Below are positions 7,761 to 18,524 of a stretch of DNA of 29,328 nt, piece after piece (within the stretch, counting starts at the first letter, position 1; each line of letters begins with the position of its first letter). Source of the DNA: a virus; the IMG/VR virus record IMGVR_UViG_3300042397_001345, positions 1-29,328 of that record. The stretch is one strand, 5' to 3'. The position numbers and the translations under genes are program-made. The notes under the pieces were generated by a model that did no database searches, was not told the DNA's origin, and saw only the letters and a list, made by a program, of their open reading frames with translations.

Positions 7761-9158
7761 CTAGACTGCACCCCACCCACCGCCACGGCCCACGAGCTCG
7801 TCGTACGCGTCGGTGAGAGCATCGACGATGTCATCATTCTTCCCCAGGGGAAACACTCGCATCTCATCGAGTAGTGTACGGTTCCAGTCAGCTGCGACCA
7901 TGTAGACATTGCCGCCAGCGACCTGCGACGCGAACGGTTCAGCGCGCACATCCTTCGATCCGGTCACAGGCAGGACTGTCACAGCACTACCATGCAACAG
8001 CCGAAGCATGTGCATCGCTTGACTCTTGCCAGCCTGGCCCGGGTCCTGCGGTAGTCGGATCCTGATGCCACGGCCATCGAGAGCAGCTGTCTGCTTTATA
8101 ACTTTATCGCGCTGGTCGGTGTCATACTGGCCACGCACCAGATCGAGAATCCAGATGCGACCATCAGCATCACGTCCCATTTTGACGCCGACCGTGAAGT
8201 CACCACTTCCAGCTGTCGCTGCAAGGTCCCAGGCGCGGGACATCTTCGTGAGGTTCGGCGTGGCATGCTCGATGGTGATCCGGTCCGACTTGAAGAAACT
8301 TCCCTCGCGTGGTGTTGGATGTTGCTGGTACAAAGCGCTCCACCCGTAGTCGCCGCTGTTGGCAACCATCACCTCTTTGATGCGTCCGAGTTCCTTGACG
8401 TCGTAGCGTTCAGGCCAGAGAGCTTCGCCAGGCATTCGACCGATCTGGTCCTTCTCCTCCGCGATTGCCGGCAGGTTCAGCACGGTCCATCGATGAGGTT
8501 CCGAACTGATTGCGCGAGCGGTGATGTCGTCGTGATGCCACCTGGTCGAGACGATGATGAGAGCGCCCTTCGGTTCGAGCCTCGTGTATAGATCGTCGGT
8601 GTACCAGTCCCAGGCCTTGTCGCGGTATAGGGAGGACTCGGCATCCTCGCGACTCCTGATCGGGTCATCGATGATGATGCGCTTGAAGCCGACGCCGGTC
8701 GGAGGACTGCCTACACCACGGGCCATGAAGGTCCCCCCCTCCGGCAGTGACCACTCATCCTGTGCCGCGTTGTCTTTTGACAGTTTAGTCCTGGACGAAA
8801 CGATCTGGCGCGACTTACGGGAGAAGCGCCTCGCGATGCGCTCATTGTAGCCAGTGACCAACACATTCGCGCTTGGATCTCGCTCGATGCAATAGGCGCC
8901 ATAGCGCACGGTCACTGTCTCAGTCTTACCGTGGCGCGGTGGCATGTGAATCGCGAGTCTGTCGATCTCACCACGCTCCACAGCGTCAAGGTGTGAAGCG
9001 ATGGCGATGAGATGCCGAGCGGTAAAGGACCAACCATTCGGCAAAGTCTCTCGAAGGTAGTCGAGATAACAGACAGCCGTCTGCGCGCTAGTTGTTGTCC
9101 TGGCTTGGTTCGGCTGCGGCGGAGAGAAGTTGTATCGAGAAGTTCGCAATGCGCTCAT
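7761..9158 (-). CDS. terL: Terminase large subunit
   Basis: This is the packaging motor ATPase and nuclease, 465 residues as read from ATG 9158. That start gives ~30 residues before the conserved region but overlaps TerS by 71 bases; a GTG at 9206 and a later TTG are alternatives. The Walker A motif is MPPRHGKTE (about 72-80) and Walker B is IIIDDP (161-166). The coupling motif is STRWHHDD (204-211). The RNase H-like nuclease begins with AWDLAAT (D311) and ends with the acidic motif NDDIVDALTDAYDEL. All key residues are present. It follows TerS and precedes the portal, as usual. Confidence 0.95.
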   Translation of the reverse strand: MSALRTSRYNFSPPQPNQARTTTSAQTAVCYLDYLRETLPNGWSFTARHLIAIASHLDAVERGEIDRLAIHMPPRHGKTETVTVRYGAYCIERDPSANVLVTGYNERIARRFSRKSRQIVSSRTKLSKDNAAQDEWSLPEGGTFMARGVGSPPTGVGFKRIIIDDPIRSREDAESSLYRDKAWDWYTDDLYTRLEPKGALIIVSTRWHHDDITARAISSEPHRWTVLNLPAIAEEKDQIGRMPGEALWPERYDVKELGRIKEVMVANSGDYGWSALYQQHPTPREGSFFKSDRITIEHATPNLTKMSRAWDLAATAGSGDFTVGVKMGRDADGRIWILDLVRGQYDTDQRDKVIKQTAALDGRGIRIRLPQDPGQAGKSQAMHMLRLLHGSAVTVLPVTGSKDVRAEPFASQVAGGNVYMVAADWNRTLLDEMRVFPLGKNDDIVDALTDAYDELVGRGGGWGAV

Positions 9159-9477
9159 GGAGAGCTGCAATTTGGGCAGCTGATTGGCCATTGATGTAAC
9201 GCTCACTCTGCGCTGTACGTGCTATCGCCTGTAGCGCCTTCAGGCTGTCCTCGAGCACTGATGTCAGAAGATCATCGAGAGACTTTGTCGGGAGAATCGT
9301 CGTGGTGATGTCATGTCGACTCTGTTCGACAGGAGTCGTCATTCTGTCCCTGATCGAGATGATGGTCGTGCGTGGTAATCCACACGACCGTGCAATGACC
9401 GAAGGACTTTGACCAGCGATCAAAGCCGATTCGACCTGTGCGAGAATCTCTGGTTCTGTTGTATTACCTCTTGCCAT
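9088..9477 (-). CDS. terS: Terminase small subunit (probable)
   Basis: This 129-residue protein starts at ATG 9477, with AGGATC right before it and the HNH stop 4 bases upstream. An N-terminal helix-turn-helix (EILAQVESALIAGQSPSVIARSCGLPRTTIISIRDRM, about residues 9-44) should bind the packaging site. The rest is helical (SLDDLLTSVLEDSLKALQAIARTAQ, AAQIAALHERIANFSIQLL), as needed for the TerS oligomer. Identification rests on this layout and on its position between an HNH gene and TerL, because TerS proteins diverge strongly. Confidence 0.75.
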   Translation of the reverse strand: MARGNTTEPEILAQVESALIAGQSPSVIARSCGLPRTTIISIRDRMTTPVEQSRHDITTTILPTKSLDDLLTSVLEDSLKALQAIARTAQSERYINGQSAAQIAALHERIANFSIQLLSAAAEPSQDNN

Positions 9478-9481
9478 GATC

Positions 9482-9808
9482 CTATTCTGTCCCATCCTGG
9501 CGCACTCTGCGCCTGTAGTGCAGCTGTCCGTGGCATAAGTAGCACAGGACCTGCACATCCTCCATCAGCTCACCACCGAGTCTGATGTAGGTAATGTGAT
9601 GCACATCGAGCTTGTAGCCGTCGTCCTGTCGACGGCCACACTGCTCGCATGTTCTACCTGACCGATCAAGCGCCTTCGTGCGAATGTCCTGCCAGCGCTG
9701 ACTCCGCATGTACTTGCGACGGTAGTCGCGCCATGCCTCATCGACCTGGTCGCCGGATGCTCCGATGGCCTTGAGCAGACTGTAGGTGTTGGACCATGGC
9801 TTTGCCAT
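9482..9808 (-). CDS. HNH endonuclease, packaging-associated
   Basis: This 108-residue protein starts at ATG 9808, with AAGGAG at good spacing; an upstream in-frame ATG at 9838 would overlap the previous gene. The HNH fold is clear: CEQCG, then LDVHHITYIRLGGELMEDVQVLCYLCHGQLH, giving two Cys pairs for zinc and the double-His metal motif. HNH proteins next to terminase genes are known to work with TerL in cutting packaged DNA (HK97 gp74 type). The same role is likely here because it precedes TerS by a few bases in the same operon. Confidence 0.88.
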   Translation of the reverse strand: MAKPWSNTYSLLKAIGASGDQVDEAWRDYRRKYMRSQRWQDIRTKALDRSGRTCEQCGRRQDDGYKLDVHHITYIRLGGELMEDVQVLCYLCHGQLHYRRRVRQDGTE

Positions 9809-9816
9809 GATGCTCC

Positions 9817-10062
9817 TTACGATGTTGTCCGTGTCCATGTGATCTCATCCTTGACCGGGTGATCTTCGCCCCACATCCAGTCAGTCGCGAAAAGCGACTC
9901 AGGGTCCAGTGTGAGACCTTGTAGAGTCTTCGACTCATCACCCGTATGCATCATGAATGCCTCATAAAGGTCTGAGTATCGGATGTAGACATCATGGTCA
10001 AAGCACACGCGTGTGATTGGTTTGCCATGCATCAAGTGTTGTATTACTTCTGAGAACTTCAT
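9817..10062 (-). CDS. Tad2/DUF2829-like small protein A
   Basis: This 81-residue protein starts at ATG 10062, which overlaps the stop of the previous gene by ATGA. The sequence follows one pattern shared with three other places in this window: F-x2-[AIV]-x3-L-x2-G-K-x-I-x-R near the start (MKFSEVIQHLMHGKPITR) and L-x2-[TA]-D-W near the end (LTLDPESLFATDWMW). That is the outline of the DUF2829/Tad2 family of small phage proteins, some of which bind cyclic nucleotide signals of host Thoeris defence. The Trp-rich pocket of the classical members is not evident here, so ligand binding is open. It is directly downstream of the HTH fusion protein that carries the same domain. Confidence 0.6.
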   Translation of the reverse strand: MKFSEVIQHLMHGKPITRVCFDHDVYIRYSDLYEAFMMHTGDESKTLQGLTLDPESLFATDWMWGEDHPVKDEITWTRTTS

Positions 10063-10631
10063 TCTATAACCGTCCAATCTCGCGCCAGGACATCATTACC
10101 TGATAGTGTCGCGAAGCCTTTGCATCGCCAAACATTCGCGCCATCGAGCTCGTATCGCATGAGTGCAGATTCCACCAGCTGAATCTTGAACCGAGCGCCA
10201 TCACGCCACACAGGACGCCCTGCGCGCACGTCTACAAGGATTTGTTCGAAACTCTTGCGACCACCCCAATTGTTTTGTTTCTTCCCGATACATTCTTGGA
10301 ACTCAATCCGCAGTGAAGGTTCTGACATCAGCCACCTGTTAAGCATCATCGTCGGAAAACCAACCGATGCAGCTGCATTGCTTCGTGTCTCACCGCTTGC
10401 GATGAGCTCCGCCCACTTGATCACGGTCGCGGTCTTTTCATCGAGCGAGATGTAAGGGTCCATTTTCTTGACTGGCCTGTCTGGATTTTCTTCCCTGATC
10501 CATCGATGCAATGTCTTCTCAGACATATCCATAATCTCAGCTGTGCGTCGTATGTTGTGACCAGCAGCTCTCAGATCTTTGATTCGCACCATGAGGAGTT
10601 TCCGCTCCTCAATATTTGTGTTCTTCGACAT
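10059..10631 (-). CDS. Two-HTH protein fused to a C-terminal Tad2/DUF2829-like domain
   Basis: This 190-residue protein starts at ATG 10631 with a strong AGGGGAG site. Residues ~12-48 form a helix-turn-helix (RIKDLRAAGHNIRRTAEIMDM to SEKTLHRWI). Residues ~62-105 form a second helical unit with HTH character (TATVIKWAELIASGETRSNAAASVGFPTMMLNRWL). Residues ~126-190 repeat the small-domain pattern: SFEQILVDVRAGRPVWR, then LARDWTVIE. It is the first gene after the 10651-10686 terminator and leads into the HNH-TerS-TerL genes. It could regulate late transcription or take part in packaging-site recognition (inference). The combination of HTH and Tad2-like parts is unusual. Confidence 0.7.
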   Translation of the reverse strand: MSKNTNIEERKLLMVRIKDLRAAGHNIRRTAEIMDMSEKTLHRWIREENPDRPVKKMDPYISLDEKTATVIKWAELIASGETRSNAAASVGFPTMMLNRWLMSEPSLRIEFQECIGKKQNNWGGRKSFEQILVDVRAGRPVWRDGARFKIQLVESALMRYELDGANVWRCKGFATLSGNDVLARDWTVIE

Positions 10632-10650
10632 TGATTCTCCCCTTCAAAGT

Positions 10651-10686
10651 AAAAGACCAGGCACACCGTTCGGATAGTGCGCCTGG
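10651..10686 (-). terminator. Intrinsic terminator after the SSB-like gene
   Basis: On the minus strand CCAGGC-G-CAC pairs with GTG-T-GCCTGG around a ten-base loop, and TCTTTT follows. It lies 33 bases after the stop at 10719 and just before the ribosome site of the next gene (10631). It separates the SSB-like transcript from the packaging operon. Confidence 0.7.
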
Positions 10687-10718
10687 TTCGTCAGCGAGTC
10701 GTTGGCAACCGGGAGAGG

Positions 10719-11219
10719 TTACTCGCTGGCGTCTTCACCGAAGGGGTCTTCGATGTCATCTGTCTTGATCGCTGGCTGTGCGATCTTGGTCAGTTTCTTC
10801 TTGGCACTGACTGGAGAAACGGACACGATGGCGTTCGTTTGATAACCACGCGTGTTGAGCTTGCTGTCGACAGTGACCATCCACTCCTTAGCCAGGAGCG
10901 AGTCGATGTCAAGGTCGTGAAACTCTTTTTGTGTCAAGCGGCGTCCGAGCATGCCATCGAGCAGGATAGTCAGTGCTGCCTTATCGGAACCATAGCCCTG
11001 TCGCGTAAACTTGACGAAGCGAAACGCGTTGCTGTTGCTATCGCCATACTCAGTGGTTTCGAAGGTGAAGCGGAAGTTTGGAAGCAAAACATTCGGATCA
11101 TCGTACGATGGTCGGTCGATGCTCTCGACGTTTGCGAGACGGCAGACATAAGAGCCTGCGACAGCTGCTTCGAACTGTGAGGCGCCATCGTTGAACGTGG
11201 CGTTTGAAAAGAAACCCAT
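10719..11219 (-). CDS. Probable single-stranded DNA-binding protein
   Basis: This 166-residue protein starts at ATG 11219 with AAAGGAG upstream and a candidate promoter at 11313-11341. It has a beta-rich core (AGSYVCRLANVESIDR, NFRFTFETTEYGDSN, AFRFVKFTRQGYG, EWMVTVDSKLNTRGYQTNAIVSVSPV) consistent with an OB-like fold. It ends in an acidic tail (DDIEDPFGEDASE), the hallmark of SSB and T7 gp2.5-type proteins that recruit partners. There is no close match to E. coli SSB that I can see. Context supports the call: it has its own promoter, is bounded by a terminator, and lies beside helicase, primase and the putative origin. A DUF669-like replication accessory protein is the main alternative. Confidence 0.6.
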   Translation of the reverse strand: MGFFSNATFNDGASQFEAAVAGSYVCRLANVESIDRPSYDDPNVLLPNFRFTFETTEYGDSNSNAFRFVKFTRQGYGSDKAALTILLDGMLGRRLTQKEFHDLDIDSLLAKEWMVTVDSKLNTRGYQTNAIVSVSPVSAKKKLTKIAQPAIKTDDIEDPFGEDASE

Positions 11220-11235
11220 AACTCTATTTCTCCTT

Positions 11236-11249
11236 TGGTCATATGACCA
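11236..11249. promoter_or_regulatory. Perfect 14-bp palindrome, operator candidate
   Basis: TGGTCATATGACCA is a perfect palindrome in the leader of the SSB-like gene, between its promoter (11313-11341) and its AAAGGAG ribosome site. A dimeric repressor or the gene product itself could bind here. The binding protein is unknown. Confidence 0.5.
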
Positions 11250-11257
11250 CTCTGTGA

Positions 11258-11304
11258 CAGTGCTGGCTCAGTTACCAATCCAAAAGGTTATTCCACCAGC
11301 ACTG
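11258..11304. repeat. Inverted repeat in the SSB-like gene leader
   Basis: CAGTGCTGG (11258-11266) and CCAGCACTG (11296-11304) are perfect 9-bp inverted arms with a 29-base spacer. They lie just downstream of the candidate -10 box (11313-11318), so the transcript would carry this stem in its leader. No T-run follows, so it is not a terminator. Confidence 0.6.
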
Positions 11305-11312
11305 CCGAGTTG

Positions 11313-11341
11313 ACATTACCAAACATCAAACCATCTGTCAA
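11313..11341 (-). promoter_or_regulatory. Candidate promoter for the SSB-like gene
   Basis: On the minus strand a perfect -35 box TTGACA (11336-11341) is followed, after 17 bases, by TAATGT (11313-11318), a weak -10 match. It points to the gene starting at 11219. The terminator at 10651-10686 would end this transcript, making a one-gene unit. Confidence 0.5.
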
Positions 11342-11355
11342 ACATTTCGTCGATG

Positions 11356-11536
11356 CTGTTCCGTGGCCCAGCGTTAGCGCCCGGGCCGCAGGAACAGTTT
11401 CGACTTATACCCCTAAGCCAGCAAGCGTCTAAACATGCTGGCAGGGGGGTTTCCAAAGGGGGGATTTTCCTGACCTGTTCCCGTTTCTTTATCCTTAAGG
11501 GCGGAACAGGTCGGGAACAGGTCGCGGGAACAGGTC
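11356..11536. repeat. Iteron-like GGAACAG(GTC) cluster with nested inverted repeats; candidate replication origin
   Basis: The motif GGAACAG occurs six times in both orientations within 180 bases. Reverse copies are at 11356-11362 and 11472-11482; forward copies are at 11391-11397, 11503-11512, 11513-11523 and 11526-11536. The last four copies extend to the ten-base form GGAACAGGTC. Three forward copies lie in tandem, starting 10 and 13 bases apart. The first pair brackets a GC-rich stem (11365-11387), making one long hairpin. A second hairpin is GCCAGCA/TGCTGGC (11417-11442), and a third is GACCTGTTCC/GGAACAGGTC (11472-11512). Two six-G runs lie between. The region sits between helicase and SSB-like genes and holds no plausible gene, which suggests an origin bound by a phage initiator (inference). 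Confidence 0.6.
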
Positions 11537-11542
11537 AAACGC

Positions 11543-12850
11543 CTATAAAAGACCAGTCGGACGGTAGAGTTTCGCGTTCCTGGGACCCTTGTCAAACGCC
11601 ACTATTCGACTCGCTTCGAGGTCCGCGAGTGTAGCTGCAACAACTGATTTTCGACCACCACATAACTCTGCAAGACGTGCCTGTGAGATGCCTGGTGTTT
11701 CACTGATGAGCTCGATGAGTTTTGAGCGGATCTCTTGTGTGATGACTTCGCTCCTGGCGCCAGCGTCAAGCGTCCTGACCTTCGTGAGACCATCCTCATC
11801 GCGGATCTCGAAGGTCACATCGATGGCGTCCTCATCACTGATTAGACGGCCCTTCGTCACATACATGCGGTACAACCCGTTCGCCTGCTTCTCGACCGAA
11901 TAGGCCATGTCAGCAGCTGCGACAATCTCCGCAGCGCCTCGCATACCTTCGTGCTTGACCGTCGAGTCAGTGCCGCCCTTGCGATTGTGGTGAGCGATCA
12001 GGACAGTGATTCCGTTGTCCAGGAGTTTCTTGAATGCGTCATACAACTTCCTCATCTGGCTGTTGTCGTTTTCATCCATGCCATGGATGCGGACCAGTGA
12101 GTCGATGAGCACCAGGCCAATACCCTGCGACTGGCAATGTTTCACGATTCGCTCCACATCAAGCGGTTGGTCGAACCTGATGCCTACACGGTTAAGGTAG
12201 CCCATTCCCTCAGCCGAGCGCATTCCGAGCTTCCTCAGCCGTTCTAAGACCTTCTGGACGCCCATCTCTTCATCGATGTACAACACTTTGGTCTGAGGGA
12301 TGTCGAACTCGTTCAGCCACTTGTCGCCGAATACAGCTGCACGAATGAGATCGCACATCACCCACGTTTTTCCACTGCCTGGCGGTGATGACAGGTAGTG
12401 CAGTCCACCAGTTGAGAGAATGTTAGGGATAAGCCAGGACTGTTTACCGAGTTTCTCCTCCTCGACCTCCATCCGTGTCCAATCCCATACCTCCCAAGGA
12501 GCGAGAGTCTGGCCACCAGGTAAGTCATCAGGCACGGTACCTGCTGCCCATTGTGACCAGAATCGACCGACTGTCTCGAGGATGACTTCGCGGTCCAGTG
12601 GCGGATCACAATATGTGTCACTCCACCAGACGGCTTGAAGCTGCGCGACGTCGATGGTGTAGCGCTTTGCGCGGAGAAAACCCAAGAGTGTCACGAGTGC
12701 GTTATTACGGCCACCGAAGGCGCCACCCGATGCGGGGTGAGGTTGCCACAGTTTGTCCCAGTGGTGCTCACCATGTGCGATGATACGGGCATGCGTCTGC
12801 ATGTCTCCGGCAACCATGAGCCGGAGATCGTCCAGTGAAAGTTCTTCCAT
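11543..12850 (-). CDS. RepA-like replicative helicase/ATPase
   Basis: This 435-residue protein is read from ATG 12850, which has AGGAACAAC before it and follows the primase stop by 7 bases. A further in-frame start at 12919 would overlap the primase. Residues ~38-95 resemble a primase C-terminal (PriCT) domain (GGRNNALVTLLGFLRAKRYT and DPPLDREVILETV). The RecA/AAA_25 core has Walker A SPPGSGKT (155-162), VLYIDEE (189-195), Walker B LVLIDSL (246-252) and VLIAHHNRKGG. A winged-helix tail (ISQARLAELCGGRKSVVAATLADLE) ends the protein and could bind the adjacent repeats. It most likely unwinds the origin and replication fork together with the upstream primase. Confidence 0.85.
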   Translation of the reverse strand: MEELSLDDLRLMVAGDMQTHARIIAHGEHHWDKLWQPHPASGGAFGGRNNALVTLLGFLRAKRYTIDVAQLQAVWWSDTYCDPPLDREVILETVGRFWSQWAAGTVPDDLPGGQTLAPWEVWDWTRMEVEEEKLGKQSWLIPNILSTGGLHYLSSPPGSGKTWVMCDLIRAAVFGDKWLNEFDIPQTKVLYIDEEMGVQKVLERLRKLGMRSAEGMGYLNRVGIRFDQPLDVERIVKHCQSQGIGLVLIDSLVRIHGMDENDNSQMRKLYDAFKKLLDNGITVLIAHHNRKGGTDSTVKHEGMRGAAEIVAAADMAYSVEKQANGLYRMYVTKGRLISDEDAIDVTFEIRDEDGLTKVRTLDAGARSEVITQEIRSKLIELISETPGISQARLAELCGGRKSVVAATLADLEASRIVAFDKGPRNAKLYRPTGLL

Positions 12851-12857
12851 GTTGTTC

Positions 12858-13694
12858 CTAGTCTGTGAATGTCTGCGTGTCCAGCGCAGTGGTAACCAAT
12901 ATACGACACTCCTCGGCATGTGCGATCATGCCCATCAATCTCATCTGCTCGATGCCGACGATGGTGTGATTGAAACAGTACAGCAAATAGTCGCCGTGCT
13001 TGTACTTGCCCAGATTCCAATTGCCACGTTCGCGCTTTGGAAGGTCCCCCGCTTTGGCGGCGATCAAAAGGCGTGACCACTCATCGCCCCATGGATGCGT
13101 GGATGTCGTCTCCTCGACGATTCTGGAGGCTTCTGGCGGGTACTTTGCGAGTTCAACCAATCGAGGTAGTTCGCGATTCTTCCAGTTTAGAGTCCCAGGA
13201 ACTCGTAGGATTCTTGACGGGTTCTTGCACTTGACGTCAGCGGACGCCGAGAGTGTGAGCATCCATCTCTCGAGCAGCTGTATAAACTCTCGCTGTTCTG
13301 TTGGCTTAGTCCCAATGCCAGCCATTTTGAGTCGCCGGTAGCAGTGGAGACCCTTCCCCGAGCGTACCGCGACTGTAACTCTAGCAAGCGTTGCAGTCTC
13401 ATCCAGACCAGCAAGATCATCAATATCGCACCACACCACAGCAGCAGTATGGACATCATTGTCCCGTCCTCCTTTTCGCCAGCGTGGAAGAACGCCGACG
13501 TACACATCATCTCCAGCGTCACTCCACTGGATACACGCTTCGCCGATGCCGGTCCAGTCTGCTTCCGTCCTTGGAAGTTCCCAGAAACGCATCTGCACCT
13601 TGCCCTGATTCATCGTTCGAATCTCGACGAAGCCGTCAGAGTACGGCTCGAAAAGCCATGACAGAAATGTCACGGCCTGTGATACACGATTCAT
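12858..13694 (-). CDS. AEP-superfamily DNA primase
   Basis: This 278-residue protein starts at ATG 13694, preceded by AAGGGGAAATA. Three archaeo-eukaryotic primase motifs are in order: VVWCDIDD (metal-binding D90 and D92), SGKGLHCYRRL (catalytic His 117) and RILRVPGTLNWK (161-172). The C-terminal ~80 residues are probably helical and carry no clear PriCT motif; that domain appears at the start of the next gene. Together the two genes look like a primase-helicase split over two reading frames, similar to RepB'/RepA-type plasmid and phage replicases. No DNA polymerase gene is present, so host polymerase is presumably recruited. Confidence 0.85.
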   Translation of the reverse strand: MNRVSQAVTFLSWLFEPYSDGFVEIRTMNQGKVQMRFWELPRTEADWTGIGEACIQWSDAGDDVYVGVLPRWRKGGRDNDVHTAAVVWCDIDDLAGLDETATLARVTVAVRSGKGLHCYRRLKMAGIGTKPTEQREFIQLLERWMLTLSASADVKCKNPSRILRVPGTLNWKNRELPRLVELAKYPPEASRIVEETTSTHPWGDEWSRLLIAAKAGDLPKRERGNWNLGKYKHGDYLLYCFNHTIVGIEQMRLMGMIAHAEECRILVTTALDTQTFTD

Positions 13695-13715
13695 TATTTC
13701 CCCTTACAATCCTGC

Positions 13716-13967
13716 ATGTCCAAGCAGGTTCCGACACATTACCGCAAACAACCGATGCAGCCCATCGAGATAATCGACGCCTATGGTCTCGACTTCAAAC
13801 GAGGGAATGCCTTGAAGTACCTACTCCGCGCAGGTTCTAAACCCAACGAAGAGAAGAACGACGATCTACTGAAAGCGGTCTGGTACCTCATCTGTGAGAT
13901 GCACAGCATCGAGCTCGCCGATGAGATCAACGCGCAGCTGTTAGTTGATGCCACTCGCGATGCCTAA
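13716..13967 (+). CDS. DUF3310 protein
   Basis: This 83-residue protein on the plus strand is embedded in a minus-strand block. The DUF3310 signature is plain: HYRKQPMQPIEIIDAYGLDFKRGNALKYLLRAGSK, followed by a helical end with a second conserved stretch (DDLLKAVWYLICEM). DUF3310 proteins are common in phages and are often annotated nucleotide-kinase-like, but the biochemical role is not settled. Its start is 22 bases from the divergent primase start, and its last 27 bases overlap the 3' end of the VRR-NUC gene on the other strand. TACAAT (13705-13710) ends 6 bases before the ATG, and no Shine-Dalgarno site is obvious, so a leaderless message is possible. Confidence 0.85.
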   Translation: MSKQVPTHYRKQPMQPIEIIDAYGLDFKRGNALKYLLRAGSKPNEEKNDDLLKAVWYLICEMHSIELADEINAQLLVDATRDA

Positions 13968-14303
13968 GTACTTGCATGTCGCTTCGACTGCTTCGTCCCA
14001 GGAATAGGCGACAAACCAAAGATAAGCATCACCAACAGACTCGCGAAATGCGATCTGTCCTGATGTCAGCTTGTTCTTGCCCGCCTTCATTTCAATCCAC
14101 ATCCCGCAGTGTTGCCCCATCTGGATCGGGATGAAGATGTCCCAGACGCCAGCCTTGAGTCCTTCGGACTTCATGCGGCCACCTGTGGCCTTGCTTCGAT
14201 AGCCGCCATTCGGCACAGCGAAGATTGTTCCCAGGCGCGCATCGTTACCACTCATCACGCGGCACCAGTTGAAAAACGCGATCTGCTGTTCTGACTCTGT
14301 CAT
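13941..14303 (-). CDS. VRR-NUC domain nuclease
   Basis: This 120-residue protein starts at ATG 14303, overlapping the sigma factor stop by ATGA. It is a compact PD-(D/E)XK-type VRR-NUC domain: E5, AVPNGG (29-34), GVWDIFIP with metal-binding D55, WIEMKAG with E71 and K73, and the following SGQIAF. All catalytic positions are present. Phage VRR-NUC proteins are thought to cut branched DNA such as Holliday junctions. With the ERF annealing protein in the other operon this gives a minimal recombination set. The 3' end overlaps the convergent DUF3310 gene. Confidence 0.9.
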   Translation of the reverse strand: MTESEQQIAFFNWCRVMSGNDARLGTIFAVPNGGYRSKATGGRMKSEGLKAGVWDIFIPIQMGQHCGMWIEMKAGKNKLTSGQIAFRESVGDAYLWFVAYSWDEAVEATCKYLGIASGIN

Positions 14304-15208
14304 AGTTCCATCCTCTCAAAAATCTCCGCCAGGACATCAGCCCCAGCGGCCACCCGTAGTTTGTCGATTGCGCGCACCTGAATCTGTCTGATGCGCTCGC
14401 GACTGTAGCCGATCAGGATTCCAACGTCCTCGAGTGACCTGCCGTCCGACAGACCGTCGAATCCAAAGCGAAGGCGAAGACATGCGATCTCTCGATCTGT
14501 GAGGACCTCCATGACCGTGCGCAGCTGCGCGTAGAGAATCTCTTTGTCCAGGTGATCACCGACTGGCGGTTCATTCGATGCCATGAAGTCGTAGCGACTT
14601 TGACCGTATGCGTTCGGTTCATCGATGCTCGAGACCAGCTTCACATCGTGCTGGAGGATTTCCGTGAGCGACTTCACATCGAGTGATTCGATTTGCTTGT
14701 GCAGGTATCGCGGGTAAGTGTGCACGACCTCACGGACGTACGCGAGAAGTTCCGCCGGTGTTGGAGTCTCACCGTGCTTCAGGATGTACTCCTGGCGCGA
14801 GACTCTAATGTGAGACAGTTTAGCGATGGCGTGTGACGGTAATCTGATGTCACGACCACGGCTCTCGATGCCGCGACCGATAGCCTGGCGGACCCAGTTG
14901 GTCGCGTAGGTGCTGAAGCGGTGACCGAGTGACGGGTCATAGCGCTGGACCGCGTGGTGTAGTCCGAGCATGCCATCCGTTAGCATGTCCTCGTGTTCGC
15001 ATCCACGGCCCCTGAACTTTTTGGCGATTGCGCTAACCATCCTGACGTTGTGATTGACGAACTCAGCAGTCGCTTTGTCTTTGTCTTTGTCAGTGCCAGC
15101 CTGGACCATTCGACCCAAGAAGAACTCCTCCTGTGGCGTCAGGAGTCCAGTGGTGCTGGTGCGTCTACTGCCTCTGTACTGCGACCAGGTTGTGATGGCC
15201 TCAGTCAC
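14300..15208 (-). CDS. Sigma-70 family RNA polymerase sigma factor
   Basis: This 302-residue protein is read from GTG 15208, overlapping the previous stop by 8 bases. The frame stays open to 15421, but that part duplicates the upstream gene in another frame. Region 1.2-like LTPQEEFFLGRMVQAG is followed by region 2 (NHNVRMVSAIAKKFRGRG, DGMLGLHHAVQRYDPSLGHRFSTYATNWVRQAI). Region 3 starts at RDIRLPSHAIAKLSHIR, and region 4 (about 235-290) reads LTDREIACLRLRFGF and YSRERIRQIQVRAIDKLR. All parts of a primary-type sigma factor appear intact. It should direct host RNA polymerase to a set of phage promoters, probably later genes (inference). The ribosome site is weak, suggesting translational coupling. 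Confidence 0.9.
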   Translation of the reverse strand: MTEAITTWSQYRGSRRTSTTGLLTPQEEFFLGRMVQAGTDKDKDKATAEFVNHNVRMVSAIAKKFRGRGCEHEDMLTDGMLGLHHAVQRYDPSLGHRFSTYATNWVRQAIGRGIESRGRDIRLPSHAIAKLSHIRVSRQEYILKHGETPTPAELLAYVREVVHTYPRYLHKQIESLDVKSLTEILQHDVKLVSSIDEPNAYGQSRYDFMASNEPPVGDHLDKEILYAQLRTVMEVLTDREIACLRLRFGFDGLSDGRSLEDVGILIGYSRERIRQIQVRAIDKLRVAAGADVLAEIFERMEL

Positions 15209-15461
15209 GAGACTGCATCGCCTGGTGTGCACGGTGATCCGGACTGTTCGGAGTGTTCCAGTCGGATGCGACCAGACACGAGAACCAGACAGCACCAACG
15301 ACCAGGACGAATGTCCCGACCATCTGAATGCGCCGCTGTGTCCGGAGTCGTCGCTCGCGCTTGAGCTCACGCTGTGAGCAGATTCCACAGATGCGATGTC
15401 CACGGCCATAAGGCACGACATTTTGTCTGTTGCATACGATGCACGAAAGTTTGATGTCCAT
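15201..15461 (-). CDS. Zinc-ribbon membrane protein
   Basis: This 86-residue protein starts at ATG 15461, with two AGGAC sequences just upstream. An N-terminal four-cysteine knuckle (CIVCNRQNVVPYGRGHRICGIC, about residues 7-28) is followed by a basic stretch (RELKRERRLRTQRR). A single membrane helix follows (VGTFVLVVGAVWFSCLVASDW, about 48-68), then a short polar tail. The layout would put a zinc-binding, basic segment in the cytoplasm next to the membrane. Function is unknown. It lies between the XRE repressor and the sigma factor, overlapping the latter by 8 bases. The reading frame is open further upstream, but that part overlaps the repressor and has no ribosome site. Confidence 0.65.
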   Translation of the reverse strand: MDIKLSCIVCNRQNVVPYGRGHRICGICSQRELKRERRLRTQRRIQMVGTFVLVVGAVWFSCLVASDWNTPNSPDHRAHQAMQSRD

Positions 15462-15480
15462 TGTCCTAGTCCTATTCTGT

Positions 15481-15675
15481 CTATTGCGGGAGCTGCTGTC
15501 CTGCGCGTTTGCAGTGCAGCCAGTGTGCGACTTCGATCTCTGTGCGACCAACCACGTCAGCGATGCGCTTGATGGTTGAGATGCGTACCGCGTAAGCTCC
15601 TGAGAGCATCCGGCACACTGCACTCTTATTGATGCCGAGTCGCTCAGCGATCTCGACCTGTGTGAATCCATACAT
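15481..15675 (-). CDS. XRE-family repressor (Cro/CI-like)
   Basis: This 64-residue protein is read from ATG 15675; an in-frame GTG at 15690 is the alternative. The whole protein is one helix-turn-helix: TQVEIAERLGINKSAVCRMLSG, then STIKRIADVVGRTEIEVAHWL. The ATG lies 7 bases after the TATAAC box, near the expected transcription start, and has no Shine-Dalgarno site, so a leaderless message is likely, as for the lambda repressor. No dimerisation or cleavage domain is present, so it is Cro-sized rather than full CI. It probably controls the divergent promoters by binding the inverted repeat at 15694-15712. Confidence 0.85.
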   Translation of the reverse strand: MYGFTQVEIAERLGINKSAVCRMLSGAYAVRISTIKRIADVVGRTEIEVAHWLHCKRAGQQLPQ

Positions 15676-15681
15676 GTCATC

Positions 15682-15711
15682 GTTATACACACAGTTGACA
15701 CATTATGTCAA
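15682..15711 (-). promoter_or_regulatory. Leftward promoter of the repressor/sigma operon
   Basis: On the minus strand TTGACA (15706-15711), an 18-base spacer and TATAAC (15682-15687) form a strong sigma-70 promoter. Transcription should begin about 7 bases on, at or near the repressor ATG (15675). The -35 box is one arm of the inverted repeat 15694-15712. Confidence 0.75.
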
Positions 15712-15712
15712 C
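15694..15712. promoter_or_regulatory. Operator: inverted repeat holding both -35 boxes
   Basis: GTTGACACATTATGTCAAC has perfect 7-bp arms around a five-base centre. Its left arm contains the -35 box of the rightward promoter and its right arm that of the leftward promoter. A dimer of the adjacent XRE protein bound here would cover both at once. Confidence 0.75.
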
Positions 15713-15724
15713 CTATGCTAGGAT
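15695..15724 (+). promoter_or_regulatory. Rightward early promoter
   Basis: TTGACA (15695-15700), an 18-base spacer and TAGGAT (15719-15724) form a good sigma-70 promoter. Transcription would start near 15731, about 30 bases before the first early gene. The leader contains a small stem, TGTGG/CCACA (15730-15745), before the AAGGA ribosome site. Confidence 0.75.
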
Positions 15725-15760
15725 GTTGATGTGGCGGACACCACACGAAGGAACAGGACA

Positions 15761-15970
15761 ATGAAGGCAAACACTGAAACCATAACAATGGCAGAAATAT
15801 GCAATGACGTAATTCGCACGTACGAAGAACTGTCACCAGGACTTATTGAAGTTATCTGCATGGAGTGTTTGTGCATGTTGAGCGAACAATCTGACGCATA
15901 TCAACATATGTGGAAATGGATTGACAGCAACATGATCGACTGGGACTACATCTACAAAACAATCAACTAA
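15761..15970 (+). CDS. First early gene, small acidic protein of unknown function
   Basis: This 69-residue protein starts at ATG 15761 with AAGGA 8 bases upstream. A GTG at 15731 is in frame but lies at the expected transcription start, and the ATG has the better ribosome site. The protein is acidic and helical (MAEICNDVIRTYEELSPGLIEVICMECLCML), with a Cys-rich middle and an aromatic end (MWKWIDSNMIDWDYIY). No family is recognised. Small acidic first-early proteins of phages often bind host proteins, which is a possibility only. Confidence 0.65.
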   Translation: MKANTETITMAEICNDVIRTYEELSPGLIEVICMECLCMLSEQSDAYQHMWKWIDSNMIDWDYIYKTIN

Positions 15971-15980
15971 GGGGGACAGG

Positions 15981-16463
15981 ATGGACGAACGAATAGAAAT
16001 GAAGTGGAAGTGTGGACACACTGAGACTCACACGTTTGGATACACGACCAACGACATGAAGGCGAAGATGCGCCTCATGGCGTCGACGCTCGGAGTCTGC
16101 ATGATGTGCAGCACACAAAAAGCAGCTGACGATCACTGGACGCAGATGCAGATTCTGCTTCGGCCACGCACCATCGTGATGACTGGATCACAGCGACAGG
16201 TCGAATGGGCACGTCAGATTCGCGCATCGATGTATGACAGTCTCGCTGTCATCCATGACCAGCTGCGCCTGGCGCATCTTGACCAGCATCACGAATGGGG
16301 AGCTATTGTGATTGCACTGCGACCCGTGCTCGAGGAGCTGCGCCGCTGGCGCCTGTACACGTACGCTGGTGACATCATCGAGCATCGCAACATCACATGG
16401 TCTCAGATGTTTGGAGACGCTTTGAACAGGGCAGGATTAAGAATCAAGGGGTTAACGAAATGA
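15981..16463 (+). CDS. Early protein with N-terminal zinc-binding motif, function unknown
   Basis: This 160-residue protein starts at ATG 15981, preceded by a GGGGGACAGG ribosome site. The first ~45 residues contain KCGH, TETHTF and VCMMC, suggesting one metal site (Cys, His, Cys, Cys). In the middle, TGSQRQVEWARQIRASM matches the 'L-x-G-S-x-x-Q-x-x-W-A-x-x-I-R' motif seen in many phage and plasmid proteins of unknown role. The rest is helical (LDQHHEWGAIVIALRPVLEELRRW). It is coupled to the ERF gene by ATGA, so a role in DNA metabolism is plausible. Confidence 0.7.
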   Translation: MDERIEMKWKCGHTETHTFGYTTNDMKAKMRLMASTLGVCMMCSTQKAADDHWTQMQILLRPRTIVMTGSQRQVEWARQIRASMYDSLAVIHDQLRLAHLDQHHEWGAIVIALRPVLEELRRWRLYTYAGDIIEHRNITWSQMFGDALNRAGLRIKGLTK

Positions 16464-17005
16464 CAATGTCGGAAACAATCGGCGCTATCGCGCCAGCGCT
16501 GGTCAAGGCCCAGGCTGAGATCAGGCCAATCGTGAAGGACAGCACGAATCCAGCGTTTCGCTCGAAGTACACTTCGCTCGATGCCATCATGGAGGTCGTT
16601 CGACCAGTGATGGCGAAACATGGTCTGTTCGTTGTGCAGTCGGTGCTGGACACCATCGACGGTGAGCATTCGACCAGCATCATGGTCGAGAGCCGTGTGA
16701 TACATGCCAGCGGTGAGTGGATCGCTGGTGTCGTGCAGGTCCCTGTGATGCAACAGACATCGCATGGATTCGGATCAGCGCTCTCGTATGGTCGACGCTA
16801 CAGTCTCAGCGCTCTCTTGTCGCTTGCATCAGATGAGGATGACGATGGAAATGGAGCTGCACAACAGCAACAGGCACGGCCACAGATCAAGCCAGGACCG
16901 CCACAGCAGACTACGCTGCGTAAGCTTGCACCAACACCGAAGCCGATACCTGGTTATCACAACGGGTCACATTTCGTTATCGGAGAAGAGGACCCTAACG
17001 CATGA
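16460..17005 (+). CDS. erf: ERF-family single-strand annealing protein
   Basis: This 181-residue protein starts at ATG 16460, overlapping the previous stop by ATGA, with AAGGGG upstream. The ERF signature is complete: an N-terminal helix (IGAIAPALVKAQAEIRPIVKD), FRSKYTSLDAIMEVVRPVMAKHGLFVVQS, and GSALSYGRRYSLSALLSLASDEDDDGN. A Gln/Pro-rich linker and short basic tail follow. ERF proteins form rings on single-stranded DNA and anneal complementary strands in phage recombination and genome circularisation. No partner exonuclease is next to it; the VRR-NUC gene is in the leftward operon. The frame is open from 16397, but that part overlaps the upstream gene. Confidence 0.92.
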   Translation: MTMSETIGAIAPALVKAQAEIRPIVKDSTNPAFRSKYTSLDAIMEVVRPVMAKHGLFVVQSVLDTIDGEHSTSIMVESRVIHASGEWIAGVVQVPVMQQTSHGFGSALSYGRRYSLSALLSLASDEDDDGNGAAQQQQARPQIKPGPPQQTTLRKLAPTPKPIPGYHNGSHFVIGEEDPNA

Positions 17006-17304
17006 CATCAGAGTGTTATTACTGCGGAGTGATGTACTGTCACTCCGCAAAGAAAACAGGCGATCACATGCCAATACCTGAACGAAACGGAGGCACGGAC
17101 ATTGTTCCGTGCTGTGCCGGTTGTCATGACATGAAGGACAGGATTCCACTACACGACTGGCATCCTGTCGCATGGAAAGAAATCAATGCTTCGTGGCCCT
17201 TGTACGGACGTTATACGAGATTATTCCTAGCGAAGGCATTGTCATTGATGACTGACTTTAATGCAAGAGCTCGAGATCAAGAGGAGGTAAACGATGACAT
17301 TTGA
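17002..17304 (+). CDS. HNH-like nuclease
   Basis: This 100-residue protein starts at ATG 17002, coupled by ATGA to erf. It has CYYCG (5-9), then GDHMPIPERNGGTDIVPCCAGCHDMKDR. The Cys pairs, the Asp-His of the catalytic strand, the Asn-like turn and the CxxCH-xxK helix match the compact HNH fold (as in McrA-like and phage HNH proteins). The final His-type residue sits at H57 or H66, which I cannot settle. It could process recombination intermediates with ERF, or be a free-standing homing enzyme, although its ATGA-coupled place in the operon speaks against recent insertion. Confidence 0.8.
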   Translation: MTSECYYCGVMYCHSAKKTGDHMPIPERNGGTDIVPCCAGCHDMKDRIPLHDWHPVAWKEINASWPLYGRYTRLFLAKALSLMTDFNARARDQEEVNDDI

Positions 17305-17587
17305 TAGAGCAGTAAGGGCTTTATTGAATGGTAAAGCCATACGACGAAAAGGCAAGAAATATATCCGCATAGGACAAACTGAGACAGAGCATTGGTTGGA
17401 GGGACCGAGTGGTTTTTGCATAGCCAGCTTGAGCGTGGATATTGATTGGATCACAGCAGATGATTGGGAATGCGGAACATACAATCAGAAAACGCATACT
17501 GTTGATTGGGACAATGTTGTTTATGATGGACACGAACGACCAATAGATAGGCTCCCAGACACAAACGTACGCAGGATGACCGGATGA
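17294..17587 (+). CDS. Tad2/DUF2829-like small protein C
   Basis: This 97-residue protein starts at ATG 17294 with GAGGAGG upstream and overlaps the HNH gene by 11 bases. It begins MTFDRAVRALLNGKAIRRKGKKYIRI and reaches ITADDWEC near residue 60, the same spacing pattern as the proteins at 9817-10062 and 17584-17898. An extra ~35 residues (TVDWDNVVYDGHERPIDRLP) follow. The family outline is that of DUF2829, which includes the anti-Thoeris sponge Tad2. The pocket residues of classical Tad2 are not clearly present. An anti-defence role is an inference, supported by its early position. Confidence 0.6.
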   Translation: MTFDRAVRALLNGKAIRRKGKKYIRIGQTETEHWLEGPSGFCIASLSVDIDWITADDWECGTYNQKTHTVDWDNVVYDGHERPIDRLPDTNVRRMTG

Positions 17588-17898
17588 AATTTGAATTAGC
17601 ATTTGAAGCCATGCGCCACGGGTATTGCATCACCGTGCAAGAAAACAAAGCTCTCTGGTACAGATACGATCAAGGCATGCAGGCTGTGCGTGCATACGTG
17701 AACAGTCTGTTTATGTCATACAGGCTTGATTTCCCTACTGACCGCATCATGACCGATCGATGGCAGGTTGGTGTTTTCATTGAAGGAAACTCACCGCTGT
17801 GGCTTGACACGGAAAACGTTCACGACATCGAGCAGATTATGCAGTATGCAGAGATCGCACTGGAAGAACGCGAGCAACGATTGGCAGGTATCAGATGA
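17584..17898 (+). CDS. Tad2/DUF2829-like small protein D
   Basis: This 104-residue protein starts at ATG 17584, overlapping the previous stop by ATGA. The first residues MKFELAFEAMRHGYCITV and the later LDFPTDRIMTDRWQV reproduce the two conserved ends of the domain in its neighbour, with the Asp before the Trp changed to Arg and the Arg after the Gly lost. About 40 further residues form a helical tail (DIEQIMQYAEIALEEREQRL). The head-to-tail arrangement of two related genes looks like an old tandem duplication. It is the most divergent of the four copies, so function may differ. Confidence 0.55.
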   Translation: MKFELAFEAMRHGYCITVQENKALWYRYDQGMQAVRAYVNSLFMSYRLDFPTDRIMTDRWQVGVFIEGNSPLWLDTENVHDIEQIMQYAEIALEEREQRLAGIR

Positions 17899-18524
17899 CG
17901 AAACTTGTATGGATAACGCCCGATGCTGAGAAGGTCATCGGGTATTGCGCCAGGGTCTCGAACCCGACAAACCAGGACAATCCTGACGTCACTCGACTGC
18001 TTCGATATTGTGTCGGTCACGGACACTGGTCAATCTTCGAGATGGCCAGCATGTGCATCGAGGTCAAGACCACGAGAGCGATCGCCGCGCAGCTGCTTCG
18101 ACATCGAAGCTTCAGTTTTCAGGAGTTTTCGCAACGATACGCAACCGTGGTCGAGGACATCGAGGTCCCAGAAATGCGCCTCGCTGGCGCTCACAATCGC
18201 CAATCAAGCCTGCCACTACCGAAGATAGAAGAACTGACCAAGGAGCAGCAGGACGCGCTGTATTTGGTCGGGTCATCAATCGAGTTTGCGACCGACGTCT
18301 ATCGCGATCTCATCGCACATGGCATGTCTGCGGAGACTGCTCGAATGGTCCTACCGCTGTGCACTCCGACCACGATGTACATGAGCGGAAGCATCCGCTC
18401 GTGGATTCACTATGTGCAGCTGCGTACACGCCAGGACACGCAGCTCGAGCATCGCGACATCGCCCAGGGAGTGCAGAACATAATGCTCGAACATCTGCCG
18501 ATAACGATGGAAGCACTCGGTTAA
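17895..18524 (+). CDS. thyX: Flavin-dependent thymidylate synthase
   Basis: This 209-residue ThyX, starting at ATG 17895 (ATGA overlap), converts dUMP to dTMP using methylene-tetrahydrofolate, FAD and NADPH. The family signature RHRSFSFQEFSQR (residues 69-81) is intact, matching RHRxxSxxExSxR. HGHWSIFEM near residue 42 and the C-terminal nucleotide-binding part (YMSGSIRSWIHYVQLRTR, then LEHRDIA) agree. Length is normal. A phage-borne ThyX supplies dTTP for replication. It may hint at a host that uses ThyX rather than ThyA, but phages move such genes freely. Confidence 0.96.
   Translation: MTKLVWITPDAEKVIGYCARVSNPTNQDNPDVTRLLRYCVGHGHWSIFEMASMCIEVKTTRAIAAQLLRHRSFSFQEFSQRYATVVEDIEVPEMRLAGAHNRQSSLPLPKIEELTKEQQDALYLVGSSIEFATDVYRDLIAHGMSAETARMVLPLCTPTTMYMSGSIRSWIHYVQLRTRQDTQLEHRDIAQGVQNIMLEHLPITMEALG

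Follow-up and report, generated by a model that had tools for sequence, protein, structure and literature searches.

Tad2, a sponge with which phages mop up bacterial alarm molecules, is known from single copies, and the question raised by the virus record IMGVR_UViG_3300042397_001345 of IMG/VR is why a small phage would carry four genes that resemble it. The window analyzed here is that record at its full length of 29,328 bases (positions 1 to 29,328; end repeats absent). It encodes a small tailed phage with a terminase large subunit (TerL), an AAA ATPase, a sigma-70 factor, an ERF recombinase, ThyX, and HNH nucleases. A sequence-only reading had proposed that four of its proteins are diverged relatives of Tad2/DUF2829, and four open genes were present at the positions it named. 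All four are genuine members of the Tad2-like superfamily that have diverged strongly, with P0004 as the weakest case, and they belong to a lineage-specific expansion of the Tad2 fold among tailed phages that are small and uncultured. The four genes are:

P0001, 9817..10062, minus strand: 81 amino acids (aa), single Tad2-like domain
P0002, 10059..10631, minus strand: 190 aa, two helix-turn-helix (HTH) units and a C-terminal Tad2-like domain
P0003, 17294..17587, plus strand: 97 aa, Tad2-like domain and C-terminal extension
P0004, 17584..17898, plus strand: 104 aa, Tad2-like domain, C-terminal extension and helix

Membership in the Tad2-like superfamily

Loci related to the window were taken from scans of viral contigs (60 with P0001, 12 with P0003, 18 with P0004, and 80 with ThyX), and an iterated profile was started from eight segments chosen by eye. 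The start profile contained no P0002 or P0003 sequence and matched P0003 (E=1.7e-5) and P0002 (E=5.6e-4). Among the fetched loci the iterated profile identified 197 distinct Tad2-like open reading frames (ORFs) in 63 clusters, with zero reversed decoys at E<=10. A second profile, A1, was a 27-row alignment of relatives whose rows include P0001, P0003, and one P0002 relative, and no P0004 relative. A1 matched P0001 (2.7e-25), P0003 (8.6e-17), P0002 (1.2e-14), and P0004 (2.0e-4) in the window and gave no false match across about 1.0 Mb of sequence from 16 other phages. It also matched the solved Tad2 chains, including AcrIIA7/HgmTad2 (8kbi, 2.8e-10; 9kzr, 5e-8; 8v3e, 1e-7), ModTad2 (9eib, 1e-7), SptTad2 (8wjd, 1.4e-6), and SPO1 Tad2 (8sme, 1.3e-5), the weakest of these matches having E=1.7e-5.

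The Pfam family PF11195 (Tad2-like) was matched individually by 26 of the 27 A1 members at E<=0.1, and relatives in 12 of 27 records exceeded its curated cut-off. P0001 itself matched PF11195 with E=2.5e-4 and 22 bits, under the curated 25-bit cut-off, and P0003 alone gave a fragment of 13.8 bits. The Pfam search yielded only HTH matches for P0002 and no Tad2-like match for P0004, and in the direct library searches P0001 was the only one of the four proteins with a convincing Tad2-like match. NCBIfam returned only weak transposase-HTH matches for the four, and PADLOC and PHROGs returned nothing useful. Matches of P0004 to the Pfam families Csx3 and DUF4846 (E 0.06-0.11) were dismissed as chance.

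Structure prediction was among the checks that the sequence-only reading had suggested, and the unrelated folds that would have spoken against it did not arise. For P0001 and P0003 the fold is assigned from the profile comparisons. The sole confident model was that of P0002, which has the following parts:

P0002 N-terminal helical part, 10287..10625, minus strand: two tri-helical HTH-like units, residues 3-48 and 63-115, assigned with DSSP on the model
P0002 C-terminal Tad2-like domain, 10062..10253, minus strand: residues 127-190, A1 E=1.2e-14

Pfam HTH_23 matched the first unit with E=2e-6. The AlphaFold model had a mean predicted local distance difference test score (pLDDT) of 81.6, with 85-93 across the C-terminal domain from residue 131, and it consisted of two tri-helical units followed by alpha-beta-beta-beta-beta-alpha-beta. 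When the model was searched with Foldseek, the ten best PDB matches were all Tad2-family chains with probability 1.00, and the highest template modeling score was 0.63 (by target length) to SPO1 Tad2 8smf at 3.1 Å. Since the ten best matches were Tad2-family chains only and HTH units precede the domain, P0002 is an HTH-HTH-Tad2 fusion. A fusion of this kind, with one to three HTH-like units, was present in 17 aligned members, and in records L089 and L168 HTH and PF11195 were both detected, weakly, within one protein. Similarly, gp009 of Serratia phage Parlo (L214:4009-4728, 239 aa) has a C-terminal Tad2-like domain (residues 166-234, PF11195 44 bits), which shows that Tad2-like fusions exist outside the window lineage. 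It differs from P0002 in that its N-terminal part had no HTH match, and the Parlo genome has one copy.

P0001 comprises a Tad2-like domain (residues 1-66) and a C-terminal extension, W-x2-G...W, and its family aligned with that of P0002 in hhalign (E=1.6e-7, 62 columns). The beta1-beta2 loop of P0001 is CFDHD, and many relatives have a Trp there. After beta2 the relatives keep R-[YF]-[SCVA]-[DE]-[LIV]-[WYF]-x2-F, which is possibly a new pocket element. In P0003 the Tad2-like domain (residues 1-61) is followed by a C-terminal extension, CGTY...T..V.WD.VVYDGH..PIDR, that is conserved in 5 relatives. Within this extension the motif W-D-[DN]-V-V-Y-D-G-H-x2-P-I-D-R is strongly conserved (17465-17551 and relatives). 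A C-terminal W-x2-G-x8-11-W pattern is common to P0001, P0003, and P0004 and was found in 69 of 211 Tad2-like ORFs, compared with 40 of 7,744 others.

The proposal that the four are diverged Tad2/DUF2829 relatives was thus borne out by the profile matches to solved Tad2 chains, the PF11195 matches, the hits in the window, and the P0002 model. The two-part sequence pattern by which the sequence-only reading had recognized them had to be relaxed. Its literal form matched no ORF: in the P0002 domain the first Leu is replaced by V, in P0004 the L, K/R, and R positions are occupied by M, Y, and V, and the second part of the pattern had been written one residue too long. A relaxed form (F-x2-[AVILM]-x3-[LMVI]-x2-G-x2-[IVL], 28-55 residues, [LIVMF]-x-[AT]-x-[DR]-W) picked out exactly the four among the 231 ORFs of the window, had no match in 200 shuffles of these ORFs, and matched 1 of the 7,744 other ORFs from related loci, a strength that is descriptive only, since the relaxed pattern was fitted to the four proteins.

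A likely core pair, an exchangeable slot, and copy number

The four genes lie in two separate blocks, as had been proposed, and strands and gene neighbors show the blocks to be oppositely oriented, a point that the sequence-only reading had not mentioned; the different timing that it ascribed to them is conjecture. P0001 and P0002 are in a leftward block ending at the terminase, and P0003 and P0004 are in a rightward block, between HNH/ERF and thyX. Adjacent genes share a few bases at their ends, an arrangement like that of ATGA-coupled operons. The neighbors are:

TerL, 7761..9206, minus strand: lies downstream of P0002 and P0001; its best tblastn match among annotated TerL genes reached 41% over 92%
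HNH endonuclease, 9482..9838, minus strand: directly downstream of P0001; PF01844 E=3e-7
ERF-family recombinase, 16397..17005, plus strand: left edge of the accessory slot; PF04404 E=2e-28
HNH-type nuclease gene, 17002..17304, plus strand: in many slots, not all; phrog_16726 E=1e-4
ThyX (flavin-dependent thymidylate synthase), 17895..18524, plus strand: right edge of the accessory slot; PF02511 E=3e-43

In most relatives P0001 and P0002 occur together beside the HNH and terminase genes. Exchange by presence or absence was not seen for them, and they look like core copies. P0003 and P0004 are accessory, exchangeable copies that occupy a slot between the ERF recombinase gene and thyX. Among 57 distinct ERF-thyX regions, the slot held no Tad2-like gene in 29, one in 18, two in 8, and three in 2. 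Even phages whose thyX DNA is about 90-94% identical to that of the window differ in slot content, which was none, the P0003 type, the P0004 type, P0004 with another type, or unrelated genes. A second phage group has a P0003 relative (76% identical) between the HTH-Tad2 and P0001-like genes instead. The slots of L112, L141, L149, and L077 contained unrelated accessory proteins of 232, 115, 128, and 151 aa, of which the 128 aa protein is a PHROG 2470 membrane protein (moron). These unrelated proteins are further counter-defense candidates. A 92-94 aa protein (GITALQRIKEDPEYWIRPVSW...LLNEQWILEP) was found in L052, L082, and L087, in the ERF-thyX slot or beside P0004, and it looks like a further Tad2-like type that the profile missed.

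Records of the lineage had 1-7 detectable copies of Tad2-like genes. Ten records of 29-35 kb had 2, 2, 2, 3, 3, 3, 4, 4, 5, and 5 copies by A1, a 21.7 kb fragment had one, and the 12.2 kb record L089 had seven. In L089 (3594-6927) the seven detectable Tad2-like genes lie within about 3.3 kb around thyX and a small terminase gene, with dUTPase and terminase genes adjoining, and Tad2-like genes are most of the genes around thyX. By comparison, PF11195 found exactly one copy, and A1 one or none, in each of thirteen Tad2-bearing reference phages (SPO1, P100, and Bp4 among them), and three reference phages without Tad2 had zero copies by both. When a canonical Tad2 was searched with tblastn in 50,697 phage records, 362 places were matched, spread over 360 records. 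Multiplication is therefore unusual among the phages compared, the wider survey being at tblastn rather than profile sensitivity. Neither multi-copy Tad2 nor HTH-Tad2 fusions were described in the literature searched, which did not cover the key Tad2 papers. The copy numbers of up to seven in relatives, the accessory slot with swapped Tad2-like genes, and the HTH/Tad2 fusion all go beyond what the sequence-only reading had noted.

Searches outside the lineage found little. Neither P0002, a one-HTH fusion relative, nor two single-domain relatives had a convincing tblastn match in sequenced phages. Scanning 84,980 genomes with the fusion family revealed no relative, and the P0001 family had one weak 32% match there, in a Cytophagales bin, in which the family profile found no domain. 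The possibility that the window is chimeric or contaminated was rejected, as the same order of genes was present in contigs of many samples.

The ratio of nonsynonymous to synonymous polymorphism (pN/pS) was 0.12 for P0001, 0.19 for P0002, 0.01 for P0003 (nine close pairs only), and 0.14 for P0004. These values are comparable to that of TerL (0.135), indicating that the four genes are under purifying selection. Overall diversifying selection, a sign of an arms race, was not seen in pN/pS.

Two further genes of the window are mentioned here for completeness. A sigma-70 factor gene (14300-15421, minus strand) has regions 2 and 4 (Sigma70_r2 E=1e-15, r4 E=2e-12), and its product may drive late transcription or redirect the host polymerase. 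A DUF3310 gene is present at 13716-13967 (plus strand), and in related phages a comparable small gene separates the replication genes from the HTH-Tad2 gene.

Ligand pocket and possible functions

The known Tad2 sponge is a homotetramer with two intersubunit pockets. Known Tad2 proteins (PF11195; SPO1 gp34.65, ModTad2, HgmTad2/AcrIIA7) have the same fold as the C-terminal domain of P0002, with a common alpha1 frame, F..A...L.xG..V.R, and a terminal D-W-x-V/I. They also have two motifs in common, R-x-G-W-N-G-K in the beta1-beta2 loop and, ahead of D-W, S-Q-T-D. The window proteins differ from them in having a shorter domain without WNGK and SQTD, several copies rather than one, an added C-terminal W-x2-G...W hairpin, and one copy that is fused to HTH units. 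Across the family, Trp is retained in 44 of 63 clusters and a WNG-like motif in 7 of 63. The domains are 61-66 aa long in the window and 59-90 aa in the family, compared with 73-102 aa for intact reference domains, most of which are longer than those of the window, and the central insertion is thus reduced.

The pockets for glycocyclic ADP-ribose (gcADPR) are formed by the loops beta1-beta2, beta3-beta4, and beta4-alpha3, and cyclic dinucleotides bind Tad2 at a separate site via an insertion between beta2 and beta5, according to a review (PMC12043709). By their length, the window domains lack the long form of this insertion. With their changed loops and reduced length, they are unlikely to bind the known ligands in the established manner, as judged from these motifs and lengths. 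SPO1 Tad2 binds gcADPR and MoTad2 binds His-ADPR (PMC13299392), a precedent for proteins of this fold changing their ligand. The sequence-only reading was right that the typical pocket is not evident and that this could be a new branch: the proteins form a distinct group, found in these searches only in uncultured phages. The term new branch is justified, and the label of Thoeris sponge is not justified for the four. Binding of Thoeris or CBASS signals and the use of separate ligands, which that reading had raised, are conjecture.

We give about even weight to a ligand-binding, counter-defense role for this diverged expansion. Like other Tad2 proteins, its members would oligomerize and bind small nucleotide-derived ligands between subunits, with the ligand loops remodeled. 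The accessory proteins P0003 and P0004 would most likely be counter-defense sponges of altered specificity, and phages might keep or swap such copies according to the signals of local hosts. P0002 would most likely be tethered to DNA, its Tad2-like part serving for oligomerization or ligand binding and its HTH units sitting on DNA, where it could regulate phage genes or aid packaging. Tad1, Acb2, and Acb4 are nucleotide sponges that resemble the window proteins in the proposed sequestering of nucleotide signals. They have no sequence match to the window proteins, and they are structurally unrelated families according to the Acb4 paper (PMC11722364). Several observations weigh against a sponge role. 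The WNGK and SQTD signatures are absent from all four copies, and the domains are short. The core pair is strongly conserved, and its purifying selection is of the usual kind, as would be expected of a housekeeping function no less than of a sponge. The variability of the slot alone is no proof of counter-defense, because unrelated genes share the slot. Finally, the fold of P0004 is unconfirmed, and its apparent membership comes from sequence comparison.

The main rival explanation, which we think possible and distinctly less probable, is that the Tad2-like fold was recruited as a structural or DNA-metabolism module instead of a ligand sponge. It would provide a platform on which DNA-binding HTH units oligomerize, as would small accessory proteins that act in packaging or nucleotide metabolism, in the neighborhood of the terminase, HNH, thyX, and dUTPase genes. 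The loss of the known pocket motifs is consistent with this, as are the conserved P0002 fusion with its one to three HTH-like units and the position of Tad2-like genes beside the terminase in both phage groups. In Klebsiella phage IME346, a DUF2829 gene also lies between TerL and the next packaging gene. Moreover, the second HTH of P0002 is weakly similar to the HTH of a small terminase subunit (BLAST E=3e-4, a single pair, 27% over 67 residues), and like the genes of such subunits the P0002 gene is near TerL. However, P0002 differs from small terminase subunits by its Tad2-like domain, and related phages have a separate gene for the subunit (PHROG 4102, E=3e-29). Against this rival, close relatives differ in whether the thyX slot holds a copy, as structural or packaging parts seldom do, and the sixty-three diverged clusters suggest diversification.

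It is rather unlikely that P0001 to P0003 are Tad2-like and P0004 is an unrelated small protein with chance resemblance at a few positions. Of the four Tad2-like domains, that of P0004 (residues 1-64) is the most diverged. Searches of Pfam and PHROG with P0004 itself were empty, and its structure model, made with 12 close homologues only, was poor (pLDDT 62.7) with no Foldseek match at E<=0.001, so that it carried no weight in either direction. Profiles matched best over the first 17-41 residues: the A1 match spans columns 1-41, and the hhalign match, E=1.2e-6 over 34 columns, is weak. Nevertheless, the E=2.0e-4 came from a profile without P0004 relatives that produced no false match in the other phages. 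P0004 relatives in other records matched A1 with E=1e-4 to 2e-3, several of them across the full domain (columns 1-66). In addition, at L090:4001-4549 a P0004 homologue and another Tad2-like domain are joined in one reading frame, giving a naturally occurring tandem protein of 182 aa. The assignment of P0004 therefore draws on the profile match, the weak hhalign match, the W-x2-G-x8-11-W extension shared with P0001 and P0003, the slot position, and the L090 fusion.

Inhibition of a non-nucleotide target, such as Cas9 or another nuclease, by protein-protein contact appears quite improbable. A Tad2 homologue has been described and deposited as the anti-CRISPR AcrIIA7, the family profile matched AcrIIA7 chains (8kbi, E=2.8e-10; 9kzr, E=5e-8), relatives in E. 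coli phages are annotated as anti-CRISPR, and the behavior of the accessory slot would fit such a role. However, AcrIIA7 is itself a Tad2-family protein that was solved with cyclic ADP-ribose and cyclic di-GMP (title of entry 8kbk), and its label may reflect an indirect effect. The idea that these genes are remnants without a function or ORFs called in error, as their small size and strong divergence might suggest, is largely refuted by pN/pS values of 0.01-0.19, the same as those of TerL and ThyX, and by the overlapping, translationally coupled gene order retained in dozens of contigs, and we give it almost no credence.

Returning to the counter-defense role, a more elaborate version would be a multi-gene ligand-reading system, in which slot-swapped, single-domain sponges bind different ligands and a conserved HTH-Tad2 sensor of such a nucleotide signal controls phage genes in response. 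We consider this version doubtful; if it were true, the phage would read the host alarm besides mopping it up. The HTH fusion raises the question of whether phages sense immune signals through such domains. The dozens of diverged types are a natural variant set for the evolution of sponge specificity and for undiscovered signals. Together, these results suggest that the lineage carries a much-altered, swappable counter-defense toolkit.

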